Source: Verrucomicrobiaceae bacterium (lineage in GTDB: Bacteria; Verrucomicrobiota; Verrucomicrobiia; Verrucomicrobiales; Verrucomicrobiaceae). Taken from it: a DNA stretch of 64,000 nt. The position numbers and the translations under genes are program-made. The DNA is taken from positions 124,001 through 188,000 of the forward strand of contig JAIBCL010000006.1 in assembly GCA_019694165.1 (NCBI GenBank), written 5' to 3'. A model generated the notes under the pieces. It saw only the letters and a list, made by a program, of their open reading frames with translations, did not search any database and was not told the origin of the DNA. Positions 2,970 through 7,390 of the stretch are shown piece after piece; the first letter of the stretch is position 1; every line of letters begins with the position of its first letter.

Positions 2970-5795
2970 ATGCCCGCTGCCCTTCCATCTGGCGACCACG
3001 ACATCTTCATCTCCTACGCGCACCAGGGTGACACTTCGTCGCGGGAGTCCGTCGCGGTGTTTGTGAAGCGGCTGCATGACGAGCTGGAGGCGGAGTTCTC
3101 CCGGCGCTTTGACCGCCCGCTGAGCATTTTCTTCGACCAGGAGGACATCCAGGACTTCGACCACTGGCAGGTTCGCTGCCATCGCGCGCTGCGTGGCTCG
3201 CGCTTCTTCATCGCCTGCCTCTCGCGCAGCTACCTGCGCAGTGATGCCTGCCGCTGGGAGTGGGAGGAGTGGTGCCGGCTTGAGGTGGAGCACGGCCTCG
3301 TCGGCCAAGGGGCCGCCTCGCTGTGGTTCGTGAGGCTGGAGGCGCTCGATGCGCCGGAAGACGCGGAACTGCTGCGCCAGTGGAAAGGCGATCTGCTCCA
3401 GCGCTTCCACATCCAGTGCCACGAATGGCGGCAGGACGATCCGTCCGCCTTTCTCGATGCCAGCGAGCGCGAGGAGCTGTCGCGCCTCACGCAGCATGTG
3501 GCGCAGCGGCTGCGGCTGCTCACGCTCGACCGCACCCGCAGCGGCAACCTGCCGTGGCCGAACGCGAACTTCGTCGGTCGCGAAACGGAGCTGGCGGCGC
3601 TGCGGAAGCACTTGATCGAGTCGCCTTCGCTCGTGCCCGCCGGCCTGCACGGCATCGGCGGCATGGGCAAGACCGCGCTCGCCCTCGCCTTCGCGCATCA
3701 CGAGGCGGATGCCTTCCCCGGCGGCTGCTGGCTGCTGCGCTGCGAGGGCCGCGACAATCTCACGGGTGTCTTCCGTTCCCTCGTCCACGATCTCGACCTC
3801 ACCGACAAGCTCACCGATGAGGAAAAGCAAAACGAAGCTCTCGCCGTGAAGCGCGTCCTCGCCCTGCTGCGCCCGCGCGGCCCCGCGCTCTTCGTGCTCG
3901 ACAACGTGGACCAGCCCGCCCTCCTCGCCCCTGCGCAGACCGCTTTCCTCAGCGCCGAGCCGTGGGCGCGGCTGCTCTTCACCACACGGCTCGCACCCTC
4001 TGAGTTCGAGACCGTAAACGCGGCGATCCATCCGATTGATGTGGACCGCCTGGCCGAAGATCAAGGCATCGAGCTGGTCCGCCGCTACCAGCCCGGCCAG
4101 ACCTTCGCCGCCTCATCCGACGCGGCCGCCGCGCGCGAGATCGTCCGCCTGCTCGACGGCCTCACTCTCGCCATCGAGACCGCAGCCGTCTATCTCGGCC
4201 AGAGTGACTCCCGCCTCGCCCCGCCCGAGCACGTCGTGAGCATCAGCGACTACGTCGAGCGCCTGCGCCACGACCTCGCCACCGGCGGCGCGGAAGGCGG
4301 GGCCAACCAGCTCAAGGAAATCACCGCCACCCTGCGCCCCACCCTCGCCCGCCTCGACGCCCCCGTGCGCACCGTGCTCCAAGTGTGCGCCCTCCTCGGC
4401 CCCGAAGCCATCGCCCTCCCCTGGCTCCGCGCCCTCGCCTCACAAAAACACCCCGAGCTGAAGGAAGCCGCCGATCTCCGCGAGAGCGACCCCTGGACCC
4501 GCCTCGTCCGTACCCTCATCGGCATGAGACTCCTCGCCACCACTCCCGAGCCGCGCGTCGTCACCATGCACCGCGTGCTGCATCGGGTGCTGGAGCGGGA
4601 GCTGAGGGACGAGCGCGACGATTTGCAAACTCAGTTGTCGAAACATGTGGAATCGCGCGCGGCTGAACTAGAGGGAACAATCCTTTGGAAGGATGCCCGT
4701 TGGGAACTCGAACCCTTAGGCGCATTGGCCGAATTGTGGGCAGACACGAATCATCTCCGTGCCGCCTGGCTGTGCAATCAAGCTGGTCGGCGCTGGAAAC
4801 ACCTCGCCAATTGGACGAAGGCGGAGCAGTTACTTCGCCACGCACTTGCGATTGGCGAGGCTAGCTTCGGGGCCGACCACCCCCAGATCACTGGAGACCT
4901 CAACGCTCTGGCGAGTTTGTTGCTCGTTACGAATCAACTGGGAGACGCCGAGGCTTTGATGCGGCGTGCACTTGCGATTGACGAGGCCAGTTTCGAGGCC
5001 AATCACCTCAACATCGCCAGAGACAGCGGCAATCTGGCGCAGTTACTGCAAGTCACGAGTCGGTTGGGTGAAGCCGAGATACTGATGCGGCGGACGCTGG
5101 CTATTTCCGAAGCCAGTCTCGGGGCCGACCACCCAGATTGTGCCGTCTGCCTCAACAATCTGGCGCTGTTGTTGCAAACGACGAATCGGTTTGCGGAGGC
5201 TGAACCGTTAATACGGCGGGCGCTGGCTATTACCGAAGCCAGCCTCGGGGCCGACCACCCAGATGTTGCGATTCGCCTCAATAATCTGGCGCTGTTGCTA
5301 CAAGCCACATATCGGCTGGGGGAGGCCGAGCCTTTGATGCGGCGTGCCGTGATTATTCTTGAGAAATCGATCGGAGAGAACCATCCAGATGTCGCCCGCC
5401 TCTTGAACAATTTGGCTCATTTGCTGATGACCATGAATCGGCTGGTGGAAGCCGAACCATTAATGAGGCGGGTGCTAGCGATTGACGAAACCAGCTTAGG
5501 AGCCGACCACCCCGAGGTCGCTAAAGACCTTAACAATCTTGCATTGTTGCTGGAAACAACGAATCGGTTTGCGGAGGCTGAGCCGTTATTTCATCGGGCG
5601 TTTTGTATCATCCAGGAGTTTCAACGCAGTACTGGCTATGCTCATTCCTCCCAGGCCCCGCTACGCCGTAACCTCCGAATGCATCTGGTGGCAAAGAGAA
5701 TGGGAAAAGGATTGGGAATTGGTTGTTTTGCCACGCTTTTCTTGGCGTTGATTGTTGTGATCGTTTGGTTCCTGCGCAGGCTGCTCTCTCTATAG
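2970..5795 (+). CDS. TIR-NB-ARC-TPR protein with C-terminal membrane helix (candidate NLR-type immune protein)
   Basis: 941 residues. Residues 1-150 are a TIR domain beginning DHDIFISYAHQGD; the SxxYxxSxxCxxE motif (85-97) supplies the expected catalytic Glu97, so NADase activity is plausible. Residues 195-480 are a STAND/NB-ARC ATPase: FVGRETEL, P-loop GIGGMGKT (228-235), Walker B ALFVLDN (306-312), LLFTTR, and an MHD-like TMHRVLH. Residues about 618-885 are kinesin-light-chain-type TPRs of exactly 42 residues with the signature ASLGADHP. A transmembrane segment (GIGCFATLFLALIVVIVWFL) ends the protein. TIR-STAND proteins are known phage-defence sensors in which the TPR part recognises a ligand and TIR depletes NAD+; that role is inferred here. 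The TPR half is visibly more AT-rich than the TIR/NB-ARC half. The protein stands alone, next to a RAYT/REP island. Confidence 0.93.
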   Translation: MPAALPSGDHDIFISYAHQGDTSSRESVAVFVKRLHDELEAEFSRRFDRPLSIFFDQEDIQDFDHWQVRCHRALRGSRFFIACLSRSYLRSDACRWEWEEWCRLEVEHGLVGQGAASLWFVRLEALDAPEDAELLRQWKGDLLQRFHIQCHEWRQDDPSAFLDASEREELSRLTQHVAQRLRLLTLDRTRSGNLPWPNANFVGRETELAALRKHLIESPSLVPAGLHGIGGMGKTALALAFAHHEADAFPGGCWLLRCEGRDNLTGVFRSLVHDLDLTDKLTDEEKQNEALAVKRVLALLRPRGPALFVLDNVDQPALLAPAQTAFLSAEPWARLLFTTRLAPSEFETVNAAIHPIDVDRLAEDQGIELVRRYQPGQTFAASSDAAAAREIVRLLDGLTLAIETAAVYLGQSDSRLAPPEHVVSISDYVERLRHDLATGGAEGGANQLKEITATLRPTLARLDAPVRTVLQVCALLGPEAIALPWLRALASQKHPELKEAADLRESDPWTRLVRTLIGMRLLATTPEPRVVTMHRVLHRVLERELRDERDDLQTQLSKHVESRAAELEGTILWKDARWELEPLGALAELWADTNHLRAAWLCNQAGRRWKHLANWTKAEQLLRHALAIGEASFGADHPQITGDLNALASLLLVTNQLGDAEALMRRALAIDEASFEANHLNIARDSGNLAQLLQVTSRLGEAEILMRRTLAISEASLGADHPDCAVCLNNLALLLQTTNRFAEAEPLIRRALAITEASLGADHPDVAIRLNNLALLLQATYRLGEAEPLMRRAVIILEKSIGENHPDVARLLNNLAHLLMTMNRLVEAEPLMRRVLAIDETSLGADHPEVAKDLNNLALLLETTNRFAEAEPLFHRAFCIIQEFQRSTGYAHSSQAPLRRNLRMHLVAKRMGKGLGIGCFATLFLALIVVIVWFLRRLLSL
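4822..5612 (+). repeat. 126-bp tandem repeats encoding TPR units
   Basis: Six in-register copies of a 126-bp unit lie inside the TIR-NB-ARC-TPR gene. The marker codons for (E/D)-x-S-x-G-A-D/N-H-P recur at 4857, 4983, 5109, 5235, 5361 and 5487, always 126 bp apart. Units around 5109-5320 share long near-identical stretches, which favours unit gain or loss by recombination. This would change the length of the ligand-sensing superhelix. Confidence 0.85.
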
Positions 5796-5806: not shown

Positions 5807-6025
5807 ATGAGCACTACGTTCGAGCCATCAATGCGGAGAAAGGTGGTTGTCTACCTCAAATTCACCCGCGCCACGGGCCATCCGCATCCGCATCCGCACC
5901 TGCAAAGGGCCATCCGCAACTACGCCCGCTTGCTCACTGCCCTGGGCCGCAGCCCGCCCGAGGTGATGGCCCAGATCAACGCCCTCTGCCGCCCCTACGG
6001 CATCCAGCTCGGCGGCGGTTCATGA
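5807..6025 (+). CDS. Orphan C-terminal cap of a TPR protein (72 aa), probably a gene remnant
   Basis: 72 residues starting MSTTFEPSMRRKVVVYLK and containing FTRATGHPHPHPHLQ ... RNYARLLTALGRSPPEVMAQI. In kinesin-light-chain-type TPR proteins of cyanobacteria and the PVC group, a segment of this kind (FTRxTGHxHPHL...NYxxLLxxMG) is the usual C-terminal cap after the last TPR. Here it stands alone, 11 bp after the stop of the TIR gene, whose own end (FQRSTGYAHSS...) is a degenerate version of the same motif followed by a membrane helix. It may be a translated fragment or debris left when the C-terminus of the NLR was replaced. No convincing ribosome binding site was seen. Its recognition rests on motif memory, not an alignment. 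Confidence 0.5.
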   Translation: MSTTFEPSMRRKVVVYLKFTRATGHPHPHPHLQRAIRNYARLLTALGRSPPEVMAQINALCRPYGIQLGGGS

Positions 6026-6026
6026 G

Positions 6027-6278
6027 GTAGGGCGCTTGCTCCTGCAAGCGCCGCCGTGCGGAGGATAAAGCCTTGGTTGATGTTTTGCTTGATGCGGAGA
6101 TTGCGCGGCCCCTCACGGCGGATGGAGGCTTCGTTCACGCTTTGCTTGATGCGGAGATTGCACGGCCTCTCGCGGCGGATTGGGGACAATCCGCCCTACC
6201 ACGCCTGCTGCCTTCGTTCACGCTTTGCTTGATACGGAGATTGCGCGGCCCCTCGCGGCGGATGGAGGACCATCCGCC
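6027..6278. repeat. REP/BIME-like hairpin repeats, left of the RAYT gene
   Basis: GTAGGGCG leads into a hairpin at 6031-6052 (arms GGCGCTTGC / GCAAGCGCC, loop TCCT). Then come several copies of a spacer containing TTGATGCGGAGATTGCGCGG and two hairpins of the opposite type: 6174-6195 (GGCGGATTG / CAATCCGCC, loop GGGA) and 6257-6278 (GGCGGATGG / CCATCCGCC, loop AGGA). The second type ends CCGCCCTAC and is in essence the reverse complement of the first, as in bacterial interspersed mosaic elements. No gene was seen in this stretch. Confidence 0.85.
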
Positions 6279-6305
6279 CCACCTGTTGGACATTCCGCCC
6301 TGCCA

Positions 6306-6791
6306 CTACCACGCCCCGGCGACTAGGCCGCCGGAGGTCCAGTGCAGTTGATGCGGCCAGTCCTCGGGGCGGGTGCAGAGATTCTTCCGCACGGGATTGT
6401 GGCGGATGTAGTGATGCTTCTCGGTCACCTCGTTTTCATTCCGCAGGCGATGATCGAAAAAGCCGTCTTGCCAGGCGATGCCGATCGTGCGCGCGGTGAA
6501 TCGTTTCCAGGCTTTGAAGAGATCGCCCATCACCGCATCGCGCGGGAAGCTCATCAGCGCGTGAAAGTGATCCGGCATGAGCAGCAGCAGGGTGACATGC
6601 CACTTCTTCTGCTCGTGATAAAATCGCGCGGCATCGAGCAAGGCGGCGGCGGTCTGCGGCAGGGTGAGCTGGTGGCGACCGCGTTCAGCGCAGTTCACCG
6701 TGATGAAAAAGAGCGAGCCATCCTCGACCCAGTGCGGCACGTCATGGTGCAGGCGTCTGCGCTCGGGAAGATCGTCGTCGTAGGCAGACAT
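6306..6791 (-). CDS. REP-associated tyrosine transposase (RAYT), IS200-like HUH family
   Basis: 161 residues of the Y1 transposase fold (Transposase_17 family). In the protein counted from this start, the metal-binding HUH motif is the HFH of MPDHFHAL (residues about 75-77) and the catalytic tyrosine is in HHYIRHNPVRKNL (about residue 128). These enzymes nick and join single strands at REP hairpins and are thought to disperse REPs; they are usually single-copy and not part of a classic IS. The frame stays open 45 bp upstream of 6791 and reaches the REP array from its far side; I chose the inner ATG (MSAYDDDLPERR) because the family begins there. Hairpin arrays lie on both sides (6027-6278, 6816-7390), the expected context. 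All motifs are intact. Confidence 0.92.
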   Translation of the reverse strand: MSAYDDDLPERRRLHHDVPHWVEDGSLFFITVNCAERGRHQLTLPQTAAALLDAARFYHEQKKWHVTLLLLMPDHFHALMSFPRDAVMGDLFKAWKRFTARTIGIAWQDGFFDHRLRNENEVTEKHHYIRHNPVRKNLCTRPEDWPHQLHWTSGGLVAGAW

Positions 6792-6815
6792 GGTGGATGA
6801 TGCTGGCAAGGTTGG

Positions 6816-7390
6816 GTAGGGCGCTTGCTCCCGCAAGCGCCGCCGTGCGGAGATCGAGGATTTCGGTCATGCGTTGTTTGGTGCGGAGAGTTCGCGACGA
6901 GGTAGGGCGCTCAGTCCTCTGAGCGCCGCCGTGCGGGGGCAGAGGGCTTCATTCACGCATTGTCTGGTGCGGAGAGTTCACGGCCTCCCGCGGCGGACTG
7001 AGGACAGTCCGCCCTACCTTGGAGAATGGGAACCAGCGGCAGCCAGGTAGGGCGCTTGCTCCTGCAAGCGCCGCCGTGCGGAGATTGGGGCTTCGTTGAT
7101 CCGCAGCTTTGATGCGGACGGTTGGCGGCCCAACGCGGCGGATGGAGGACCATCCGCCCTACCTTGGCGGCTGTAGGCCGGTGGCAACCGGGTAGGGCGC
7201 TCAGTCCTCTGAGCGCCGTCGGGCGAGGGGAAAGGGCTTCGGTCACGCATAGCTTGATGCGGAGAGTTCACGGCCCCTCGCGGCGGGCTGAGGACAGCCC
7301 GCCCTACCCGGCGGACATCTTCGTTCATGCATTGCTTGATGCGGATGGTTGGTGGACCAACGCGGCGGCTGGAGGACCATCCGCCCTGCC
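6816..7390. repeat. REP/BIME-like composite hairpin array, right of the RAYT gene
   Basis: Eight 22-nt hairpins lie at 6820-6841, 6906-6927, 6992-7013, 7051-7072, 7137-7158, 7196-7217, 7282-7303 and 7364-7385. Type A reads GGCG-stem with a TCCT/TCCC loop after GTAGG. Type B reads GGCGG-stem with an AGGA loop before CCGCCCT. Most are arranged A-spacer-B as inverted pairs of about 110 bp. Stems differ between copies but stay paired: GCTTGC/GCAAGC or GCTCAG/CTGAGC in type A; GGATGG/CCATCC, GGACTG/CAGTCC or GGGCTG/CAGCCC in type B. The last copy (7364) has one C-T mismatch. It abuts the hrpB stop codon and may terminate transcription. There is no gene in this 600-bp stretch. Confidence 0.9.

Follow-up and report, generated by a model that had tools for sequence, protein, structure and literature searches.

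The window, a 64,000-nucleotide stretch of a Verrucomicrobiaceae genome, contains on its forward strand a gene (2970..5795) for a 941-aa TIR-NB-ARC-WHD-TPR protein (TIR-NLR) with a hydrophobic C-terminal segment. The frame runs through 941 codons without interruption. Pfam assigned TIR_2 (residues 12-125, E 1.4e-11) and NB-ARC (residues 205-406, E 9.4e-13) above cut-off, together with a weak DUF7779-like match (residues 459-549, E 0.04) and seven stretches of TPR_10 (E 1.5e-55), confirming the exact coordinates and the TIR-NB-ARC-TPR composition given in a first-pass annotation. The TIR domain and linker occupy 2997..3575 on the forward strand, and homology to relatives starts at ~2997, at or near the relatives' start codons. 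The NB-ARC and winged-helix-like segment follows on the same strand (3582..4592), ends with HRVLHRVL (residue 541) and carries the P-loop GIGGMGKTA and the Walker B motif ALFVLDNVD, both as intact as had been claimed. The kinesin-light-chain-like TPR array (4860..5590, forward strand) is built of 42-residue (126-nt) units and was modelled by AlphaFold as a solenoid with pLDDT >90 in most blocks; the earlier description of a '42-residue TPR sensor' therefore holds for the unit and its type, but there is an array of seven such repeats rather than one. Judged from its sequence, the protein is a real TIR-NLR (TIR-STAND), a known antiphage kind, with an N-terminal TIR domain, a putative catalytic glutamate, an NB-ARC domain with P-loop and Walker B, and C-terminal repeats.

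The glutamate expected to be catalytic, E97 (codon 3258-3260, in 'CRWE'), is invariant across 10 aligned TIRs and lies opposite the glutamate of AbTir 'WTNYEL' in a profile alignment. AlphaFold modelled the TIR domain at pLDDT 75, and VIA-align, used to re-examine Foldseek matches rather than as an independent search, scored this model at Z 12-13 against the RUN1 and SPARTA TIRs and at 11.7 against AbTir. The structure prediction proposed with the first-pass annotation thus returned a fold like that of known TIRs, including these NADases, and the alignment shows the matching glutamate position. However, IL-1-receptor-type TIRs score as high against the model as NADase TIRs do, so the fold alone is no proof of NADase activity, and the position of the glutamate is the better argument for a predicted NADase.

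At an E value of 1e-40, the TIR part was found only in the window's own genome among 388 genomes of the phylum, and another order yielded more. No plasmid record covered 80% of the whole protein, with all matches below 60% identity, and no TIR match was found in phage records. Viral contigs gave a single match (33%, to residues 10-99), and PADLOC models matched the protein only weakly and in part. Truncated TIR modules occur at L042 (contig 13 of the same genome as the window), L050 and L051, the latter two sharing ~620 bp with L042 at 91-92% DNA identity and breaking off at different points. Behind the TIR fragment in L042 and L050 lies a DUF4062-NACHT gene, with TPRs in L042 and WD40 repeats in L050, followed in both by an NB-ARC fragment that is 94% identical over 205 bp; at these loci (L042 5844-10897, L050 4690-12526) the middle gene differs and the flanking fragments are shared. 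A 241-aa TIR fragment is common to L051, from a record titled as an Akkermansia muciniphila MAG (a name that may be wrong), and L072, found when searching an order other than that of the window. L073 (267-2947) encodes a second-clade TIR-NLR with an apparently frameshifted TPR array, the 3' part of which retains the ordinary tail.

Comparison with the relatives suggests that sensor cassettes have been exchanged at a fixed junction. At this putative constant/variable junction (4586..4620, forward strand), L048, L049 and L070 cease to show contiguous DNA homology to the window gene. Between L048 and L049, a stretch of 1,601 bp reaching from the gene start as far as the WHD end is 86% identical, with nothing contiguous on either side. 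The L070 contig starts within the gene, and its sequence is 87-88% identical to each of the other two, with homology ending at the same place. Across the three pairs, nucleotide identity drops from 0.86-0.89 to 0.46-0.55, with maximum-likelihood change points at residues 535, 533 and 540 and the WHD motif ending at 531, such that identity collapses no further than about nine residues past the winged-helix motif. In a second TIR-NLR clade (L073-L075), the change falls at 539 and the motif ends at 535, with smaller steps. Relationships on the two sides of the junction are discordant, as L048 and L049 are the closest pair before it (87% identical) and the most distant after it (36%); there the window protein is 48% and 42% identical to L048 and L049, respectively, both above the L048-L049 value, with identities in this part blurred by the shared TPR consensus.

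The relatives' sensors could alternatively differ through fast evolution of the TPRs in place, a process that would accommodate both the smaller steps of the second clade and the blurring of the break in older comparisons (window protein versus L048 and L070). It accounts poorly for nucleotide identity falling from 86-89% to ~50% over a handful of codons, at the same place in three pairs, and for the discordant relationships on either side, and we regard it as rather doubtful. Against L049 the break in the window protein is sharp; that it is not so against L048 or L070 suggests that the window sensor may be older than the tail, and as the TPR part is ~52% identical to that of L070, exchange in the window protein need have involved no more than the tail, without necessarily extending to the entire sensor. 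The sensor part is low in GC in the window gene, but since the same drop occurs in L049 and L070, low GC was rejected as proof of a foreign sensor.

More general than the tail is the fixed junction, which is based on the window protein, its three close relatives and three second-clade members; we infer that recombination underlies the exchange of sensors. As a tentative extension, a constant TIR-NB-ARC-WHD cassette may be joined to interchangeable TPR cassettes at one DNA junction, with 3' exchange also able to convert a receptor from soluble to membrane-anchored, which would amount to a combinatorial repertoire produced by recombination. If true, sensor exchange in bacterial NLRs would have a concrete example that can be mapped, its junction usable for experimental sensor swaps, and a receptor might change its location in the cell by exchanging its last segment. 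Sequence diversification of STAND C-terminal sensors is known, for example via diversity-generating retroelements (PMC10907252), and no published description of a fixed junction of this kind was found in the part of the literature covered.

At its C-terminus, the window protein carries a predicted transmembrane helix (residues ~914-937, around IGCFATLFLALIVVIVWFL; 5709..5780, forward strand) with positive residues on both sides. The best Kyte-Doolittle 19-mer scores 2.83 at residue 917, compared with a maximum of 1.45 before residue 900; none of 4,024 open shuffles of the segment's DNA reached 2.83, and a C-terminal segment of at least 2.5 occurs in only 2 of the 262 window frames of at least 100 aa. 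The C-terminal transmembrane segment claimed in the first-pass annotation is thus borne out by hydropathy, on which alone membrane topology was judged, and because the segment is above chance the membrane tail may be used. AlphaFold placed helices at residues 895-914 and 920-940 with low confidence. The membrane tail is absent from all ~25 relatives with a readable C-terminus, the orthologues ending in a soluble tail, and had no convincing match across 384 genomes of the class; searched alone, it had no match among 72,556 plasmids. Marginal tail matches at L064 and L065 were judged to be chance, as no related protein is present there.

Two sites in the window region match a profile built from the ordinary C-termini of ten relatives, one in frame and one in another frame. 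The in-frame copy of the family tail motif (FHRAFCIIQEFQRSTGYAHSS...; 5591..5708, forward strand) is a partial match that stops shortly before the membrane segment. The out-of-frame match is complete (~5820-6005; 61 bits, E 2e-20) and belongs to a stranded ordinary C-terminus, also on the forward strand (EPSMRRKVVVYLKFTRATGHPHPHPHLQ...GIQLGGGS, then a stop; about 5820..6025), which most resembles the L070 C-terminus (VVIFLKFTRATGHPHPHLH...PYGVHFGGNS). In its own frame the stranded copy has a GC3 of 0.80, near that of the TIR-NB-ARC part (0.87), whereas the in-frame tail has 0.55. As the tail motif is found in both the in-frame and the out-of-frame stretch, two tails are present, and the idea that the membrane tail arose by a simple frameshift was rejected. 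With a complete ordinary C-terminus stranded downstream, the membrane tail appears derived, a one-off substitute for that C-terminus rather than a conserved sensor anchor, and recombination was probably the cause. The simplest reading of the sequence is that recombination set the ending of another TPR protein, with a membrane helix, before the gene's own ending.

Taken together, we favour, at a probability of roughly 65%, a single-gene TIR-NLR (STAND) immune protein that would act by cleaving NAD+ and that gained its membrane tail within this lineage by 3' recombination. The TPR array would recognise a component of an intruder, upon which the NB-ARC/WHD switch would exchange nucleotide and oligomerise, and the clustered TIR domains would cleave NAD+ via E97, arresting or killing the infected cell; both the NADase activity and the phage trigger are presumed. 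Recombination at the 3' end would have replaced the ordinary C-terminus by the membrane tail in this lineage, and the tail, if made and inserted, would yield a tail-anchored protein with the TIR, NB-ARC and TPRs in the cytoplasm.

The first-pass annotation had instead read the C-terminal helix as a tether holding the TPR sensor at the inner membrane, from which the TIR-NLR would watch membrane-associated phage events. Of that interpretation, the TIR-STAND architecture, the motifs and the non-random hydrophobic segment stand, but the membrane tail finds no support as a property of the system, given its absence from relatives and the ordinary tail stranded downstream. A tether would agree with hydropathy far above chance and with positive residues N-terminal of the segment, which would fit a tail anchor with a cytoplasmic sensor; against it, the tail occurs in this copy only, orthologues end soluble, and the stranded tail suggests a newly acquired ending, making such a function unlikely. 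A membrane-sensing role for the window protein is possible but unsupported, and should not be read from a tail in a single copy.

Equally unlikely is that the gene is decaying, its 3' end broken by recombination, its membrane tail accidental and its product inactive or silent. The stranded tail, the truncated TIR copies in its own and other genomes (L042, L050, L051) and the apparent frameshift in the TPR array of L073 would all suit decay, but the uninterrupted reading frame, the intact catalytic and P-loop motifs, the strong codon-position bias of the TIR-NB-ARC part and a hydrophobic tail that is not chance-like speak against it.

The surroundings form no clear defence island; as the directly adjacent genes are not defence genes, the defence-island check proposed with the first-pass annotation came out weak. 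Immediately upstream are two genes without Pfam matches, in which PADLOC likewise found nothing, and downstream the opposite strand encodes a Y1-type (RAYT-like) transposase and HrpB. The stop of the stranded tail is immediately followed by an intergenic repeat (6025..6060) with ~40 further matches in the genome; with further repeats at 6129-6283, 6306-6836 and 6900-7387 beside the Y1-type transposase gene, this looks like a REP/RAYT arrangement. To the left of the window, the contig encodes a NUDIX protein, a kinase, a C5 methylase and an SLFN-g3 helicase; of the defence-type genes that PADLOC brought up, the closest is this kinase, with PD-T4-6-like matches and ~6 kb upstream of the gene, followed at 18-21 kb on the same side by the C5 MTase and the SLFN-g3 helicase. 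PADLOC matches to the SLFN-g3 helicase and C5 cytosine methylase were strong (L066 1-1197 and 1512-2753, 15-18 kb before the window start). Upstream of the orthologues, an Hsp90-like ATPase gene is followed by a TPR gene (L048 631-4300, L049 4449-7728; ATPase 69% DNA identity). The Hsp90-like gene was rejected as a fixed partner, as it is near L048 and L049 only and the window's genome offers no better match than one of 25% identity on a different contig.

Among known systems, AP-ATPase (NB-ARC)-TPR proteins with an N-terminal TIR (NCBIfam FxsC/FxsT) have the same domain order, TIR - AP-ATPase - TPR, and genes of this kind occur beside FxSxx-COOH/VMAP-type conflict systems (Kaur et al. 2020, PMC7159879). 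Membership of the window protein in such an FxSxx-COOH (FxsC/FxsT) peptide-processing or VMAP ternary conflict system, in place of a stand-alone NLR, is highly improbable, since the matches to FxSxx_TPR (E 6e-60) and FxsC_Nterm (E 7e-12) reach 203.6 of 300 and 45.6 of 130 bits, far under the curated cut-offs, and the flanking genes tested on both sides showed no FxsA or radical-SAM FxsB domain and no other peptide-processing partner. The stand-alone TIR-NLR reading finds its counterpart in the TIR-NLR of P4-like satellites, which conferred phage protection on E. coli (Rousset et al. 2022, PMC9122126); by domain composition, both combine a TIR effector with an NLR-type NTPase, and a membrane tail, as in the window protein, is not mentioned in the accessible part of that report. 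Swarozyc, in which DUF4062 proteins are reported to be TIR-like NADases (Osinski et al. 2026 preprint, PMC13174449), has an effector of the NADase type predicted for the window protein, and DUF4062-NACHT genes sit directly behind the truncated TIR copies in L042 and L050, but the window protein has a canonical TIR_2 rather than DUF4062. With the plant TIR-NLRs RPP1, Roq1 and RUN1, the window protein shares the TIR-NB-ARC order and the TIR fold across a distant sequence relation. The sensor of the plant TIR-NLRs is an LRR, where the window protein has TPRs.
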